From: Marinobacter bryozoorum
GTDB taxonomy: Bacteria > Pseudomonadota > Gammaproteobacteria > Pseudomonadales > Oleiphilaceae
Length of the DNA: 64,000 nt
Direction of reading: 5' to 3'
Assembly (NCBI RefSeq): GCF_023156245.1
Contig: NZ_JAKZAH010000020.1
Span: forward strand, 1 to 64,000
The position numbers and the translations under genes were made by a program. This document shows, in pieces, positions 12,513 to 35,521 of this stretch (position 1 is its first letter; each line of letters begins with the position of its first letter). Below the pieces are notes generated by a model. It was not told the DNA's origin, ran no database searches, and worked only from the letters and a program-made list of their open reading frames with translations.

Positions 12513-12653
12513 GGGCCGCCCTGTTGCTGTGGTGTCATTGAGGGTAACCACTGCAATATAGCAGGGCAGCAAGGCGGTTCGCGAACGGCTGCCCTGCAAC
12601 ACTTGACGAATTACATTGACCACCACAGGGGGTGTTGCTAGCCTTGCGCCCTG

Positions 12654-12847
12654 TTTTCAGGTGTCCTGTTGCCATTATGGCGCGGGATGAAACGGGAAGT
12701 CGGTGCGCCTTCGGGCCAGTCCGACGCTGCCCCCGCAACGGTAATTGAGATAAGGGTAACCAATCCGCCACTGCGCACGGTCGTGGGAAGGCGGTTACCC
12801 GTAACCGCACCGCGGTTCGCTCAAAAGCCCGGAGACCGGCCTGAAAA
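12654..12847 (+). promoter_or_regulatory. Cobalamin (AdoCbl) riboswitch
   Basis: Aptamer of about 194 bases upstream of btuB. The closing P1 helix is visible as TTTTCAGG (12654-12661) with CCTGAAAA (12840-12847). The conserved core is present: GGGAA...GGTGCG, then AGTCC, and the B12 box GCTGCCCCCGCAACGGTAA at about 12726-12744. The 3' conserved AGCCCGGAGACCGGCC matches the family's AGTCAGGAGACCTGCC. Binding of cobalamin should lower expression of the transport operon that follows. Confidence 0.93.
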
Positions 12848-12925
12848 CACACCCGGAGTTGCGGAGGGCGGCTCGGGTAGGCGACTCCCGGCATCTTCCC
12901 GCTCTCCGTCCTGCCTGCCCCGCTG

Positions 12926-12982
12926 ACTACTCCGTAATGCATGTCTTGAGCCCGTGCGGGTGCGCGCGGTTTGTGGAGTAGT
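12926..12982 (+). promoter_or_regulatory. Riboswitch expression platform sequestering the btuB ribosome binding site
   Basis: ACTACTCC at 12926-12933 is perfectly complementary to GGAGTAGT at 12975-12982, and the second segment contains the btuB Shine-Dalgarno sequence three bases before the ATG at 12986. A GC-rich inner hairpin (CCCGTGCGGG) fits inside. No U-tract terminator is present between aptamer and gene, so control appears to be at translation initiation. Confidence 0.7.
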
Positions 12983-12985
12983 GTG

Positions 12986-14818
12986 ATGTTCAAGTTTCCA
13001 GTTTTGGTGGCAGGGGCCTCCCTGCTTGCAGCTTCCCAGAATGCCTTTGCCCAGTCCCCGTCTGATACGGAATCCCTGGACCCTATCGTGGTAACCGCCA
13101 CACTGGGGCCGGAAACCGTTGGTGAGAGCCTTTCCTCCGTTACCGTGATCGACCAGTCAGATATCAAACGTCGGCAACCGACCGAATTCCGGGACCTGTT
13201 GCGGGGCCAGCCCGGGGTGAACCTGTCTTCTGAAGGCGGCTTTGGCAAGACCACCAGCCTGTTCCTGCGGGGAACCGGCAGCTCAGGCACGGTATTGCTG
13301 CTTGATGGTATCCGCCTGCGCTCCGGTACTGCCGGTATTCCCCCCTGGCAGTTCCTGCCAGCGGACCTGATGGGGCGGGTTGAACTGGTGCGCGGTGCGA
13401 AAAGTTCGCTGTATGGCGCTGATGCAGTTGGTGGTGTGGTGCAGGCGTTCACACTGGAGCCCGAAGCAGAGCGTCAGGGTTGGGTCGAGGTTTCCGGGGG
13501 CTCCCATGCTACCCGGGCAACCAGTGCCGGGGTTGCCGGGAAGGCCAGGCAGACCTCGTTCCTGGCCAGTGGCCTCTATTCCGATACGGATGGCACCAAC
13601 CTGCGTGCCGGTGGAGAGGACAGGGGGTTTCGCAATGCGGGCGGCCTTGCCAAACTGAACCACCGTTTCGACCAGGGCGGCGGGATGGGACTGACCGTTT
13701 TCCAGTCAGAGGGAAACACCGAGTTTGAGGGCGGCGACACCGATTTCATGATCCGCGCGGCAGGCCTGTACGTGGAAGCCGTTGCCAGTGATTACTGGCG
13801 CACCCGTATCCAGTTTTCTGAGGCCAGGGACGAGCAGGACACCTTTGGCAGCTACCCGAGCACCTATAATACCCTCTCTCGCTCCGCCCGCTGGGATAAC
13901 ACCCTGACGGCCGGGGTACACGAACTGGTACTGGGCTCCGAAGTCATGGTGGACGAAGTGGAAGGCAGCGATGACTTTGCCGAAACCAGCCGCACCAATG
14001 CGGCGGTCTATGGTCAGGGGCGCCTGAACTTTGGCCCGAGCGAGGTTATGCTCAGCCTGCGCCTGGATGACAACGAGGCCTTTGGCAAGGAAGAGACCGG
14101 CGGAATTGCCTTCGGTCACCAGTTTGACCGGGAACACCGCATGCGGGTGAGCTACGCGACCTCGTTCAGGGCCCCCACCTTCAATGACCTTTACCTGACA
14201 ACGCCCTATTACACCGGCAACCCCGACCTGGACGCAGAGCAGGGCCAGATGGTGGAGCTGGGCTTCTCCGGTCGTTACAGCTCCTGGTTCTGGGATGTGG
14301 CGGTGTATCAGAACGACATCGATGACCTGATTACCTACGTGTCGGACCCGGTCACCTGGGATGGCACCATGGAAAACGTGGAAACTGCCCGGATTCGTGG
14401 TGTGGAACTGTCTTCCGGCTATGAGGCAGGCAACTGGAATCTCGGCGCAGCGCTGACCTACGCTGACACAGAAAACAGGGACACCGGTGCTCGTTTACCG
14501 CGCCGCGCTGCCAAAATCATCCGGCTGGATGCGGACCGGCTTTTCGGTAGCTGGTCCGTCGGGGCCAGCCTGGTTGCGGAGAGTGATCGCTATAACGATG
14601 CAGAAAACACCAGCCTGTTGTCCGGGTATGGCACCGCTGACCTGCGAGCGGCCTGGAATTTCCTGCCCGGGTGGTCTGCCACGTTCAAGGTGGACAACGT
14701 GCTGGATCGTCGCTACACCACCAGCCTGGGTAATGACAGTGTGACGTTTGAACCGTTTGAATACCTGGCGGCGGGCCGCACCTACATGGCGTCGTTGCGT
14801 TATGATTTCAGCCGATAA
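12986..14818 (+). CDS. btuB: TonB-dependent outer-membrane cobalamin receptor BtuB
   Basis: Outer-membrane barrel of 610 residues that takes up vitamin B12 with TonB energy. ATG at 12986 is chosen over an in-frame TTG at 12971 because GGAG lies seven bases upstream and the signal peptide starts here (cleavage after NAFAQ). A TonB box-like segment DPIVVTATL follows the signal peptide, then the plug domain (about 45-150, with RQPTEFRDLLRGQPGVNLS and SSLYGADAVGGVV) and the 22-strand barrel ending in the aromatic residue pattern YMASLRYDFSR. Substrate assignment rests on the cobalamin riboswitch upstream and BtuFCD genes downstream as well as the BtuB-like size. Expression should fall when B12 is plentiful. 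Confidence 0.92.
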   Translation: MFKFPVLVAGASLLAASQNAFAQSPSDTESLDPIVVTATLGPETVGESLSSVTVIDQSDIKRRQPTEFRDLLRGQPGVNLSSEGGFGKTTSLFLRGTGSSGTVLLLDGIRLRSGTAGIPPWQFLPADLMGRVELVRGAKSSLYGADAVGGVVQAFTLEPEAERQGWVEVSGGSHATRATSAGVAGKARQTSFLASGLYSDTDGTNLRAGGEDRGFRNAGGLAKLNHRFDQGGGMGLTVFQSEGNTEFEGGDTDFMIRAAGLYVEAVASDYWRTRIQFSEARDEQDTFGSYPSTYNTLSRSARWDNTLTAGVHELVLGSEVMVDEVEGSDDFAETSRTNAAVYGQGRLNFGPSEVMLSLRLDDNEAFGKEETGGIAFGHQFDREHRMRVSYATSFRAPTFNDLYLTTPYYTGNPDLDAEQGQMVELGFSGRYSSWFWDVAVYQNDIDDLITYVSDPVTWDGTMENVETARIRGVELSSGYEAGNWNLGAALTYADTENRDTGARLPRRAAKIIRLDADRLFGSWSVGASLVAESDRYNDAENTSLLSGYGTADLRAAWNFLPGWSATFKVDNVLDRRYTTSLGNDSVTFEPFEYLAAGRTYMASLRYDFSR

Positions 14819-31529: not shown

Positions 31530-32309
31530 TTACAGTGGGTTGACGACGTGGCCACCATCCACGGTGATGACAGACCCGGTCATGAACTGACCCGCATTGC
31601 TGGCGAGCAACAGCATGGCGCCGTTGAGTTCGTCAAGCTGGCCGAGACGGCGCATGGGCACGCCCTTCTGGATGAAGTCCTGACCCTGGTCGGTGTCGAA
31701 GAAGTCTTCGTTGATCTCGGTGCGGAAATAGCCCGGTGCTATGGCGTTGACCCGGATCTTGTATCGCGCGAGCTCCATGCCCAGGGACTTGGTGAGCTGC
31801 ACCACGGCAGCCTTGGACGTGGCATAGTGGCTGAGCCCCTTACCCACACGAAGTCCGAGGATGGAAGCGATATTGACGATGCTGCCGGACTTGCCGGCCT
31901 TCGCCATGCGCTGTCCGCCGCACTGTGCCACACGCCAGACGCCGTCCAGGTTGGTGCCCAGCATGAAGCGCCAGTCTTCCTCACTGATTTCCAGCGCCCG
32001 GGCGGCACCGCCGACACCGGCGTTGTTGAGTACCACGTCCACGACGCCAAAGGCTTCCTCGGCAGCGTCGAAGGCTGCTTCCACGCTCTCCCGCGAGGTA
32101 ACGTCCATGGCAACGGAGAGCACTTCGCCGCCTTCGCCGCGAATGTCGTCAGCGAGCTGATTGAGTTTTTCTACCCTGCGAGCGCCGATGACAACACGGG
32201 CACCCACCTGGCTGCAGATACGGGCAAAGTGCGCGCCAAGGCCACTGGACGCACCAGTGACCATGACGGTTTTGCCCTTGAGCGAGAAGGCATCAAGGGG
32301 ATGGCTCAT
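31530..32309 (-). CDS. Short-chain dehydrogenase/reductase
   Basis: Classical SDR of 259 residues from ATG 32309. The NAD(P)-binding motif is TGASSGLG (about 18-25), followed by NNAG, the catalytic Ser in IVNIASILGL and the YxxxK site HYATSKAA. The acceptor loop starts GARRVEKL, where the Arg residues after the second strand may favour NADP. The ATG overlaps the thiolase stop (TGATG), so translation is coupled. As the last gene of the Liv/beta-oxidation operon it probably handles a 3-hydroxyacyl, 3-ketoacyl or alcohol intermediate. 3-hydroxybutyrate dehydrogenase is possible, but the substrate is not determined by sequence. Confidence 0.9.
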   Translation of the reverse strand: MSHPLDAFSLKGKTVMVTGASSGLGAHFARICSQVGARVVIGARRVEKLNQLADDIRGEGGEVLSVAMDVTSRESVEAAFDAAEEAFGVVDVVLNNAGVGGAARALEISEEDWRFMLGTNLDGVWRVAQCGGQRMAKAGKSGSIVNIASILGLRVGKGLSHYATSKAAVVQLTKSLGMELARYKIRVNAIAPGYFRTEINEDFFDTDQGQDFIQKGVPMRRLGQLDELNGAMLLLASNAGQFMTGSVITVDGGHVVNPL

Positions 32310-33493
32310 CACAGCACCTCAAACAGCCCGGCTGCGCCCATGCCGCCGCCAACACACATGGTAACGACCACGTATTTGACGCCACGACGCTTACCTTCGA
32401 GCAGGGCATGACCTACCATCCGGGCACCACTCATGCCGTAGGGGTGACCGATAGAGATGGCGCCACCGTTGACGTTCAGGCGGTCATCGGGGATACCCAG
32501 CTTGTCGCGGCAGTACAGCACCTGTACGGCGAAGGCTTCGTTCAGCTCCCACAGACCGATATCGTCCACTTTCAGGCCATGTTGCTTGAGCAGCTTGGGT
32601 ACGGCGTAGACCGGGCCGATACCCATTTCTTCGGGCTTGAGACCCGCGACGGCCATGCCACGGTAGGCACCCAGGGGCTGCAGGCCACGCTGTTCGGCAA
32701 GCTTGGAGTCCATCAGCACGCAGGCGCTGGCGCCATCGGAGAGCTGGCTGGCGTTGCCGGCGGTGATGCAGCCGCCTTCGATGACCGGGTTGAGGCCGGC
32801 CAGGCCTTCGAGCTGGGTGGACGGACGGTTGCCTTCGTCCTTGTCGAGGGTGGCTTCTTCGTAGGTGACTTCCTTGGTTTCCTTGTTCATCACCGCCTTT
32901 GTGGTGGTGACCGGTACAATTTCGTCATCGTACAGACCCTTTTCCTGGGCGACAGCGGTGCGCTGCTGGGACTGAAGCGCATACTCGTCCTGGGCTTCAC
33001 GGCTGATGCCGTAGACGTTGGCCACGTTCTCCGCGGTTTCCAGCATTGGCATGTAGGCATGAGCAGCATGTTTGATGACGGTCTCGTCACGTTCGTTGGC
33101 CATCCACTCGAAGTTCTTCTGCTGAACCAAGGAAATGTTCTCGTGTCCGGCGCCAATGGCGACGTCCTGGCCGTCATGGATAATCTGCTTGGCGGCGGTC
33201 GCGATTGCCATCAGGCCAGAGGCGCACTGGCGGTCGATGGTCATGCCACTGACGGTCAGGGGCAGCCCTGAGGCCAATGCTGTCAGGCGTCCGAGGTTCA
33301 TGCCGGCTGTGCCGCCCTGCATGGCGGTACCCATTACCAGGTCTTCGATTTCTGCCGGATCGACCTTGGCGCGCTCAACGGCAGCCTTGATGGCGAAGGA
33401 CGCCATGGTGGGTGACTTGGTGTTGTTGAACAGTCCCCGGAAGGCTTTGCCAATGGGGGTACGTGCGGTGGATACGATGACTGCTTCTCTCAT
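32309..33493 (-). CDS. Acetyl-CoA C-acyltransferase (thiolase)
   Basis: Thiolase of 394 residues, cleaving 3-ketoacyl-CoA to acetyl-CoA in degradation. The acylated Cys lies in [16 protein letters not shown] (about 90), the conserved His in [22 protein letters not shown] (about 350) and the second Cys in [17 protein letters not shown] (about 380). The length and sequence features fit the degradative class I/II thiolase family. It is translationally coupled to the SDR and belongs with the acyl-CoA dehydrogenase and 3-hydroxyacyl-CoA dehydrogenase genes upstream. About 480 bases carrying two structured repeats separate it from the dehydrogenase gene. Confidence 0.93.
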
Positions 33494-33590: not shown

Positions 33591-33708
33591 GTCGATCGAC
33601 CGGCGGGACAGGCTTTCGCAGCAGCGCCATGGATGGCGCGGAGCAAGGCCGGTCCAGGGATGGGCCGTGAATTGCGGCGGAGAAAGCCTGTCCCGGCGGG
33701 CGAGCGAC
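33591..33708 (+). repeat. Structured repeat element, copy A
   Basis: Inverted arms 33591-33617 and 33682-33708 match at 24 of 27 positions, with the inner 14 bases perfect. They enclose a 64-base core (33618-33681). The core holds hairpin 1, CGCC-ATGGAT-GGCG, and hairpin 2, GGTCC-AGGGAT-GGGCC, bracketed by GCAA and TTGC. It would fold as a three-way junction. The core is nearly identical to the reverse complement of copy B, while the arms differ. It lies between the thiolase and 3-hydroxyacyl-CoA dehydrogenase genes. Confidence 0.85.
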
Positions 33709-33805
33709 GGACTACCTTGTTTCTCGTGACTTCAGCAAATCATTTTCGGCTTGATCAGCGGTTCCAAGCATGCTCACCCAGACTGTGAATGAGGTGCCTG
33801 GCCTC

Positions 33806-33902
33806 CCGGTGGGGGTACTTCCTCCGCTGCAATTCACGGCCCGTCCTGGACCGACCTTGCACCGGGCCATCCATGGCCCTGCTGCGGAAGTACCCCCACC
33901 GG
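33806..33902 (-). repeat. Structured repeat element, copy B, opposite orientation to A
   Basis: Perfect 17-bp arms (33806-33822 and 33886-33902) enclose a 63-base core that, read on the minus strand, aligns with copy A at 57 of about 64 positions. Hairpin 1 is GGCC-ATGGAT-GGCC: compared with A both outer bases of the stem have swapped (C-G to G-C), a compensatory change. The arms share no long identity with those of A but are likewise G-rich and end in CTTCC. The remainder of 33494-33973 shows no gene. Confidence 0.85.
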
Positions 33903-33973
33903 AAGTCCGTGTGAGCTCCGTGCTGTCCGCCTTTGGAATAATTCTGTTTATCCTGCCAGATCGTTTTTTCGCT

Positions 33974-35314
33974 TCAGACTTTCTCGATCTTCGTCTTGCC
34001 TTCCGCAACCAGCTTTTCCAACAGCGGTGCCGGCTCAAACCACATTGTGCCGTAATCACCCAGGGTATCGCGATAGTGACGGATGGTATCGAGGATCTTC
34101 TCCAACCCGATCTGCTCGGCGTAATGCATGGGTCCACCCAGCCAGGCCGGGAAGCCGTAACCGTTGATCCACACCAGGTCGATATCACCACTGCGCAGGG
34201 CAATGCCCTCGTCCAGAATCTGGATACCCTCGTTGATCAGCATGTACAGACAGCGATCGTGGATTTCCTCGTTGCTGATCTCCCGGCGCTCGATGCCCAG
34301 GTCAGCAGCGATTTTCTCGGCCAGTTGGGTCACCTCAGGATCTTCTTTCTTCTCCCGGTCTTCATAGATATAAAACCCGCGACCGGTCTTCTGACCGTAA
34401 CGGCCCAGGTGATAGAGCTCGTCCGCCAGTTTGCAGTAGCCCGGGTCCTGGCTGATTTCATCCCGGCGGGATTCCCGTACCAGGTAGCCCACGTCGATAC
34501 CGGCCAGGTCGTACATGGACAGTACACCCATGGCCAGGCCGGTGGAGGTCATCACGCCGTCCACCTGGGCCGGGGTCGCGCCTTCCAGTACCAGGCGGTG
34601 GGCTTCACGGGCGTAGGGTTCAAGCATGCGGTTGCCGATAAAGCCGAAGCAGACCCCGGAAACCACCGCGACCTTTTTGATAGTCTCAGCCATATTCAGG
34701 CAGGTGGCCAGCACATCGTCAGCGGTTTTCTCTCCACGAACGATTTCCAGCAGCCGCATCACGTTAGCCGGGCTGAAGAAGTGCAGGCCGATAACGTCCT
34801 GGGGACGGTTGGTAGATGCAGCAATCTGGTCCACGTCCAGGGTGGAGGTGTTGGAGGCGAGGATGGCGCCGGGCTTGCACACCTTGTCGAGGGTGCCGAA
34901 CACCTGCTTCTTGACGTTCATGCTCTCGAAGACAGCCTCGATCACCAGGTCGGCATCACCCAGGTCGTCGTAGCTGAGGGTGCCTGAGAGCAGGGCCATG
35001 CGCTGGTCCATTTCTTCCTGGCTGAGTTTGCCCTTGGTGACGGTGCGCTGGTAGTTCTTGCGGATGATCTCCAGGCCCTTGTCCAGGGCTTCCTGCTTGA
35101 GTTCCAGCATGACCACCGGGATGCCGGCGTTGGCATAGTTCATGGCAATACCACCGCCCATGGTGCCGGCGCCGATAACGGCCACTTTCATGATGGGGCG
35201 CAGCTGAATATCCGGGCTGATGCCGGGGATGTCGCTCGCGACTTTCTCGGCCTGTTTTACATGGTCCAGGGCTTTTTGCTGTTCCGGGGTGTAGTGGTCT
35301 TGGGGACTTGTCAT
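33974..35314 (-). CDS. 3-hydroxyacyl-CoA dehydrogenase, FadB-like but without hydratase domain
   Basis: NAD-dependent dehydrogenase of 446 residues from ATG 35314 (AAGGAAAAC upstream). The frame extends to 35368, but the added residues are not family-like. The Rossmann motif VIGAGTMGGGIAMNYANAG lies at about 48-66, followed by the 3HCDH N domain (to about 225, with SNTSTLDVDQIA and GLHFFSPANVMRLLEIV) and two 3HCDH C-terminal domains (about 230-330 and 360-435, with INGYGFPAWLGGP). This is the C-terminal two-thirds of a FadB-type protein, lacking the enoyl-CoA hydratase half. No separate hydratase gene is in the operon, so that step must come from elsewhere. Structured repeats flank the gene on both sides. 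Confidence 0.92.
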   Translation of the reverse strand: MTSPQDHYTPEQQKALDHVKQAEKVASDIPGISPDIQLRPIMKVAVIGAGTMGGGIAMNYANAGIPVVMLELKQEALDKGLEIIRKNYQRTVTKGKLSQEEMDQRMALLSGTLSYDDLGDADLVIEAVFESMNVKKQVFGTLDKVCKPGAILASNTSTLDVDQIAASTNRPQDVIGLHFFSPANVMRLLEIVRGEKTADDVLATCLNMAETIKKVAVVSGVCFGFIGNRMLEPYAREAHRLVLEGATPAQVDGVMTSTGLAMGVLSMYDLAGIDVGYLVRESRRDEISQDPGYCKLADELYHLGRYGQKTGRGFYIYEDREKKEDPEVTQLAEKIAADLGIERREISNEEIHDRCLYMLINEGIQILDEGIALRSGDIDLVWINGYGFPAWLGGPMHYAEQIGLEKILDTIRHYRDTLGDYGTMWFEPAPLLEKLVAEGKTKIEKV

Positions 35315-35380
35315 GATGTTTTCCTTTGAATATCCGAGTAGAGGGCTTGGCGAAGATGCGGCTTGCACAAGGTCGAGAGG

Positions 35381-35488
35381 CAGGGGGGCCGGGCACTTTT
35401 TCCGGGACCGTCGAAAAGATGGACCTTTTCGACGAGCCTACAGGGACGTATTTACGGTGTGTCCCGGAAAAAGTGCCCGGCCCCCCTG
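35381..35488 (+). repeat. Structured repeat element, copy C
   Basis: Perfect 28-bp inverted arms at 35381-35408 and 35461-35488 enclose a 52-base core. Hairpin 1 is GTCGAAAAG-ATGGAC-CTTTTCGAC (9-bp stem) and hairpin 2 is TAC-AGGGAC-GTA. The stems differ completely from copies A and B, but the loop motifs ATGGAY and AGGGAY and their order are the same, as are the G-rich arms with a CTTTTTCC end. It lies in the gap between the 3-hydroxyacyl-CoA dehydrogenase and acyl-CoA dehydrogenase genes. Confidence 0.85.
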
Positions 35489-35521
35489 ACTCCGGAGGGC
35501 AAACTCAAAACCTGGCGAACA

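Follow-up and report, generated by a model that had tools for sequence, protein, structure and literature searches.

TwoAYGGAY (Rfam RF01731), a pair of A-Y-GGA-Y-loop hairpins within a poorly conserved outer stem, has been described as a probable RNA that is probably not cis-regulatory (Weinberg et al. 2010, PMC2864571). The idea that it binds CsrA is already in print, as a proposal from motif matches whose experimental test still lay ahead in that report (PMC4333381). The high-affinity form of a Csr/Rsm site is given as an ANGGAX hexaloop placed directly on a stem (PMC4005645, PMC7652899); the SELEX consensus is RUACARGGAUGU, and one CsrA dimer can bridge sites 10–63 nt apart (PMC7652899). 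In RsmZ, a C-G pair closes the loops and the N is absent from some of them, and GGAs that are occluded are reported to bind poorly (PMC4005645); a very stable structure may also disfavour CsrA binding, according to a review (PMC7652899). Here, we compare with these systems three elements found in a 64,000-nt stretch of Marinobacter bryozoorum DNA (the window), together with the repeat family to which they belong.

Three structured elements in a fatty-acid oxidation cluster

The three elements sit between genes of a minus-strand fatty-acid oxidation cluster, with a 3-hydroxyacyl-CoA dehydrogenase gene (33974–35368, minus strand; start at 35314 by inference) between elements and an acetyl-CoA C-acyltransferase gene (32309–33493, minus strand) after copies 1 and 2. 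Copy 1 occupies 33591–33708 on the plus strand; its 5′ arm (33591–33617) and 3′ arm (33682–33708) enclose hairpin 1 (33624–33639; loop ATGGAT, 33629–33634) and hairpin 2 (33649–33668; loop AGGGAT, 33656–33661). Copy 2 lies on the minus strand at 33800–33908 (arms 33886–33908 and 33800–33822), with the loop ATGGAT (33869–33874) in hairpin 1 (33864–33879) and a five-base loop, AGGAC (33843–33847), one base short, in hairpin 2 (33837–33853). Copy 3 is again on the plus strand, at 35377–35492, and its arms (35377–35408 and 35461–35492) are 97% complementary; hairpin 1 (35409–35434) carries the loop ATGGAC (35419–35424) and hairpin 2 (35439–35450) reads TAC-AGGGAC-GTA, with the loop at 35442–35447. 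The short stem of this last hairpin was taken from the consensus fold, the other five hairpins from sequence and fold together.

An earlier note on this DNA had described three structured copies of one architecture. They are present: for copies 1, 2 and 3, folding of the GGA strand scores z = −8.0, −7.4 and −10.7, respectively, which none of 200 shuffles equals. The arms of copies 2 and 3 run further than that note had them, to the limits given above, and, as a correction to it, copy 2 is oriented opposite to the other two. The proposed loops ATGGAY and AGGGAY, or close to it, fit copies 1 and 3, with the second loop of copy 2 a nucleotide short. The arms pair within each copy and differ from copy to copy; their inner ends, read on the GGA strand, are CTTTC (copy 1), CTTCC (copy 2) and CTTTTTCC (copy 3). 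Copies 1 and 2 have one core in common, which we call type A; the core of copy 3, type D, is another one built to the same plan.

It had also been stated that no named family matches. For copies 1 and 2 this does not stand: both resemble TwoAYGGAY, scoring 35.0 and 26.1 bits against RF01731 (Rfam, sensitive mode), below its 43-bit cut-off. The statement survives for copy 3, for which Rfam had nothing at E ≤ 10. RF01731 also had no match at E ≤ 1 in seven further type D loci, where the models overlapping the elements were sub-threshold microRNA and Ysr224 models. Type A shows the RF01731 plan of two looped hairpins within a variable outer stem and differs from it in the second loop base, which is often G, A or missing rather than Y. 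Against this genome, RF01731 gave 33 matches at E ≤ 10, two of which exceed the cut-off; of 100 genomes surveyed in the genus, with this one among them, 85 had a match at E ≤ 0.01 and 14 had one above the cut-off.

The nearest named relatives of the dehydrogenase come from Marinobacter zhanjiangensis (94%), a record labelled Stutzerimonas stutzeri (90%) and M. daqiaonensis (86%). At the copy 3 site, M. zhanjiangensis has the element in the same place, with eight arm pairs changed and 8/8 compensated, and M. daqiaonensis has an element whose core is inverted. For copies 1 and 2, no counterparts were found by eye when the three nearest relatives were inspected at their thiolase intergenic regions. 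After the dehydrogenase gene, at the sites matching copies 1 and 2, the relatives (L048, L049 and L050) carry short hairpins of a GGGTCNGACCC-like kind with a T run of 4–7 behind them.

Family size, distribution and mobility

Type D was first found with a pattern drawn from copy 3 and its like, which fixed loop 2 and left loop 1 free. It picked out 17 places in the genome (reversed-pattern control, 4), and all 17, judged by eye from sequence and folds, share the plan with the other core. Covariance models were built from 28 type A copies (R1) and from these 17 type D copies (R2). In this genome, R2 gave 35 matches at E ≤ 1e-9 and R1 gave 35 at E ≤ 1e-6, one of the latter truncated; copies 1 and 2 score 111.4 and 108.5 bits with R1 and copy 3 scores 117.5 bits with R2, each being itself a member of its model. 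Altogether, we counted 69 elements. Outside this number are an RF01731 match on C36 (18.3 bits) and a truncated R1 match (C83:137314); C72:10297 was counted from a separate search. The earlier note's suggestion of a family is therefore borne out well beyond three copies, and the one described family that resembles it, TwoAYGGAY, has a function that is a prediction in its published account.

In G083, a complete genome from the genus, R2 matched 118 times. Across the order, R2 matched in 107 of 293 genomes (12 of the 107 Marinobacter) and 50 of 118 genera, and across the class in 62 of 369 genomes, this one included, and 56 of 272 genera; since both surveys scored no more than 10 to 12 candidates in each genome, the copy numbers they give are lower bounds. 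The window copies belong to a large, mostly unannotated and mostly intergenic repeat family of many Gammaproteobacteria.

Such a distribution raises the possibility, listed in the earlier note, of a non-autonomous mobile element, namely one whose folded GGA strand, as RNA or single-stranded DNA, is recognised by a transposase or reverse transcriptase and whose resting copies have no host function. High copy number, which differs between species and between types, agrees with it, as do a random orientation to genes (see below) and pairs of which one member, found in this genome, is missing from a relative through gain or loss. Terminal repeats divide the evidence. Of 39 flank pairs from other genera, 3 exceeded the 99th percentile for terminal inverted repeats (expected 0.2). 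One genome (G416) has three nearly identical 209-bp units (L283, L285 and L286) with a type D element inside and 19-bp inverted ends, CTAAATACGTGTTCCGAAT; their C|TA...TA|G borders resemble an IS630-type target. Three further type D elements lie inside units of 226–249 bp (L252 in G448, L269 in G576 and L278 in G670), and the terminal inverted repeats are unrelated. For Marinobacter, on the other hand, no terminal repeats stood out (inverted, 1/136 with 1.0 expected; direct, 3/136 with 1.2 expected). Copy 3 had no match in plasmid and phage collections. The family resembles MITEs in the 200–250-bp units with terminal inverted repeats that surround it in G416, G448, G576 and G670, and differs from them in that Marinobacter copies have no such ends and the ends in other genera are mutually unrelated. 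The module can ride on transposon-like units, yet the family is not explained thereby, and we consider a purely mobile element unlikely.

REP and REPIN repeats that accompany a RAYT flank the Y1 transposase gene. None of the four Y1_Tnp loci of this genome has an R1 or R2 match at E ≤ 0.01 within about 1.5 kb on each side, which speaks against a RAYT/REPIN system and, again, against mobility. Intergenic location, palindromic form, many copies and inverted pairs are shared with REP, BIME and REPIN sequences. The differences are a length of ~110 nt with a two-hairpin core, as opposed to 14–40 nt for E. coli REP (PMC12306157), selection that is strand-specific, and the lack of adjoining Y1 transposase genes in this genome.

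Setting, folding strand and arm evolution

Only 5 of the 69 elements overlap a called ORF. Leaving out these five and one at an edge, 47 clean sites remained, of which 28 lie between co-directional, 17 between convergent and 2 between divergent genes (convergent versus divergent, p = 0.0007); gaps of at least 120 bp in the window number 11, 1 and 4, respectively. Single elements at co-directional sites were sense in 8 cases and antisense in 11, and orientation to genes is thus random. Orientation to one another is not: pairs less than 400 bp apart had facing 5′ ends (“− +”) in 51 of 56 cases. These comprise 15/17 in this genome, 5/5 and 3/4 in two relatives, 13/13 in G083, 10/10 in other genera, 4/5 at other loci of the genus (L143, L150, L155 and L130, with L129 the exception) and a further 1/2 (L257; L252 holds two elements in the same direction). 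Copies 1 and 2 form a “+ −” pair, the rarer polarity, and are one of the five exceptions. Some “− +” pairs are 600–1050 bp apart (G000:C51:7881–8616; G083 C1 2969062, 3039870 and 3550898), and a short called gene lies between the two elements of the G000:C51 pair.

The scarcity of divergent sites is what one would expect of a general REP/BIME-type 3′-end hairpin, in which the loops are irrelevant and the stem serves as an exonuclease barrier or as an aid to termination. The stems are indeed very stable, and A and C abound on the GGA strand downstream of the elements, a composition that could suit Rho-dependent termination. Intrinsic termination finds no support in the sequence after the stem, where T makes up 12% and 15% of the first two 10-nt bins (136 elements) and no T run follows. 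Moreover, a plain stem would need neither invariant A-N-GGA-N loops nor a fixed spacing, and random orientation goes with a G·T excess that lies on the GGA strand whether an element is sense or antisense (see below). We hold a general 3′-end role to be quite doubtful.

Further features of the flanks were scored on the same 136 elements. A scan for sigma-70-type promoters upstream found nothing above shuffles. Short conserved motifs occur on both flanks (log-likelihoods 215 and 236 versus 34 and 39 for shuffles), approximately ANCTCNRARGTYNG before the stem and GCACCNAARCY, at times then CAGGCTAC, after it. A target-site duplication was rejected, the two flank motifs of a locus resembling each other no more closely than they resemble motifs from other loci (5.65 versus 5.71). 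At one locus (L011), tandem repeats of a CCAACAG-like unit stand just downstream of the element.

Which strand folds can be read from the mispairs in the arms. On the GGA strand, G·T outnumbers A·C by 49 to 2, a count in which sets A1 and A2 were aligned by sequence alone, covariance-model alignments leaning to G·T. Type D alone, whose copies were found regardless of their arms, gave 25 versus 1 (p = 8e-7). Over 112 Marinobacter elements the ratio was 128:7, and between co-directional neighbours it was 35:1 for sense and 31:2 for antisense elements. Order-level loci, some Marinobacter among them, gave 44:6; the excess is weaker at class-level loci (17:5, leaving out a reverse-strand match, L266:1504). 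This asymmetry argues that the GGA strand folds as a single strand, be it RNA or single-stranded DNA, and speaks against a cruciform or mere palindrome repair.

Five covariation measures agree with selection on pairing: for type A, type D and 90 distinct R2 matches, 0/500 shuffles reached the observed values and slid controls were all lower. We then compared orthologous sites among this genome, M. zhanjiangensis and M. daqiaonensis (flank identity 77–91%), summing 13 of 14 comparisons, of which three come from one trio; L168/L171 was dropped as not orthologous. Of 364 arm pairs, 271 were unchanged and 93 changed—67 on both sides and still paired, 9 on one side and still paired, and 17 with at least one of the two unpaired—and the core kept 42–52 of its 52 positions. 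The two antisense comparisons richest in changes had all 23 of their changed arm pairs altered on both sides and paired, two further antisense comparisons showing one changed pair, broken (L184/L177), and four changed pairs, of which one was two-sided, one one-sided and two broken (L186/L187). The arm structure is under selection, and compensatory change at resting loci is not what a role in transposition alone would predict.

The surplus of two-sided over one-sided paired changes (67 versus 9) could also arise if one arm were repaired from the other, that is, if the arms were palindromes kept perfect by template switching without selection on an RNA. Such repair works on both strands, however, and should not yield 49 G·T against 2 A·C. 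It also sits poorly with the conserved core and with the lack of replication-strand bias, which was absent between the halves of the G083 chromosome (99 of the 118 matches used, origin assumed near base 1). We regard template-switch repair as very unlikely.

Loop conservation, spacing and predicted binding by CsrA

The loops read A-N-GGA-N. In 90 of 90 distinct Marinobacter sequences matched by R2, both loops keep their A and their GGA, although conservation is partly conditioned by the loop 2 fixed in the first search pattern. The N was G51/T38/A1 in loop 1 and T54/G32/C4 in loop 2, and the last base was mostly T or C. Together with covariation beyond all 500 shuffles, this supports what the earlier note had proposed from three copies, namely that stems vary and loops are constant. 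Among 42 order-level sequences, both GGAs were kept in 42/42, a single loop-1 A had become C and the N was missing three times over both loops; class-level sequences hold to the plan by eye. GGA-to-GGA distance was 22–25 nt in 86 type D elements and 25–30 nt in 49 of 50 type A elements, or 22–30 nt in 135/136 (parser range 18–34 nt; the type A copy L162 gave no two spaced loops), which is inside the range that a CsrA dimer can bridge.

In type D, loop 2 is mostly (T/C)(A/C)CA-N-GGA-(T/C)-G-(T/G), and hairpin 2 of copy 3 comes near the CsrA SELEX consensus. An A(N)GGAX loop on a stem, conserved over copies, is present in the consensus fold, where loop 2 of copy 3 is an open A-GGGA-C on a TAC/GTA stem paired in 100% of cells; copy 3 folded singly for minimum energy has that loop partly paired, GGG with CCT, a point against binding there. 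This genome has one csrA gene, whose product presumably resembles E. coli CsrA. Outside Marinobacter, csrA was present in 79 of 80 element-bearing genomes, each at least 97% complete and chosen from 168 found in the order and class surveys; the single miss, G576, carries the element. This co-occurrence is a weak test, because csrA is common in Gammaproteobacteria and only element-bearing genomes were scored.

Among the roles suggested in the earlier note, that of a protein-binding RNA fits best, with binding by CsrA—reportedly the proposal of Gardner and Eldai for TwoAYGGAY—as the prediction. Fold, strand and loops together point to an RNA that would offer two predicted sites to a CsrA dimer. 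That the element is such a strand-specific structured RNA with two spaced CsrA/RsmA sites is, in our estimate, about an even call. The GGA strand folds into a long, locus-specific stem with a G-rich 5′ arm and carries two small hairpins, whose GGAs lie ~22–30 nt apart, each in an A-N-GGA-N loop, the CsrA/RsmA recognition form. A single element could then present a CsrA dimer with a complete two-site ligand, and the tens to more than 100 copies per genome might serve as dispersed CsrA binding sites, a titration reservoir; alternatively, they might recruit CsrA locally to 3′ regions and intergenic RNA. The analysis establishes the fold with its covariation, the strand that folds, the pattern and spacing of the loops, the copy number, the mostly intergenic location and the presence of CsrA; from these we infer that the GGA strand is transcribed, bound by CsrA and of importance to the cell. 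Expression is the weakest step of the CsrA reading: antisense elements require a transcript of their own and, with 8 sense against 11 antisense, are not explained by upstream read-through.

The dedicated small RNAs CsrB and RsmZ are the nearest functional comparison. A(N)GGAX loops, an N that is sometimes missing (as in RsmZ) and a bridgeable spacing are shared with them. The element differs in that it has two sites rather than many, is dispersed in tens of copies, stands on a long stem peculiar to each locus and shows no recognised promoter. A bolder reading, which we put forward tentatively as the less probable outcome, is that of a dispersed CsrA sponge. Dozens to more than 100 two-site ligands in the intergenic DNA of Marinobacter and many other Gammaproteobacteria would each be expressed on the GGA strand whatever the direction of their neighbours, often as divergent pairs with facing 5′ ends, and a repeat family would set the level of a global regulator, in place of a few dedicated small RNAs or together with them, the module travelling as transposon-like cargo in some lineages. 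If the CsrA reading holds, unannotated repeats may account for much of the capacity of many Gammaproteobacteria to bind CsrA, and a global regulatory network would shift whenever copies were gained or lost. Should CsrA not bind, we know of no explanation for a structured family that shows strand-specific selection and, across genera, a strong pair polarity.

In literature searches of titles and abstract openings, we found no description of type D, of coupled arm evolution or of pair polarity, and nothing describing these elements under REP in Marinobacter or CsrA with repeats. Six short core strings were absent from the papers searched by text, and neither Marinobacter nor RAYT appears in the main text of the RepRanger paper (PMC12306157). 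If the CsrA reading is right, a little-studied Rfam entry also becomes a large family whose folding strand is clear, whose ligand can be tested and whose copies are a natural archive of compensatory evolution.

Elsewhere in the window, a cobalamin riboswitch (RF00174, 104.9 bits; 12642–12858, plus strand) precedes the gene at 12971–14818.
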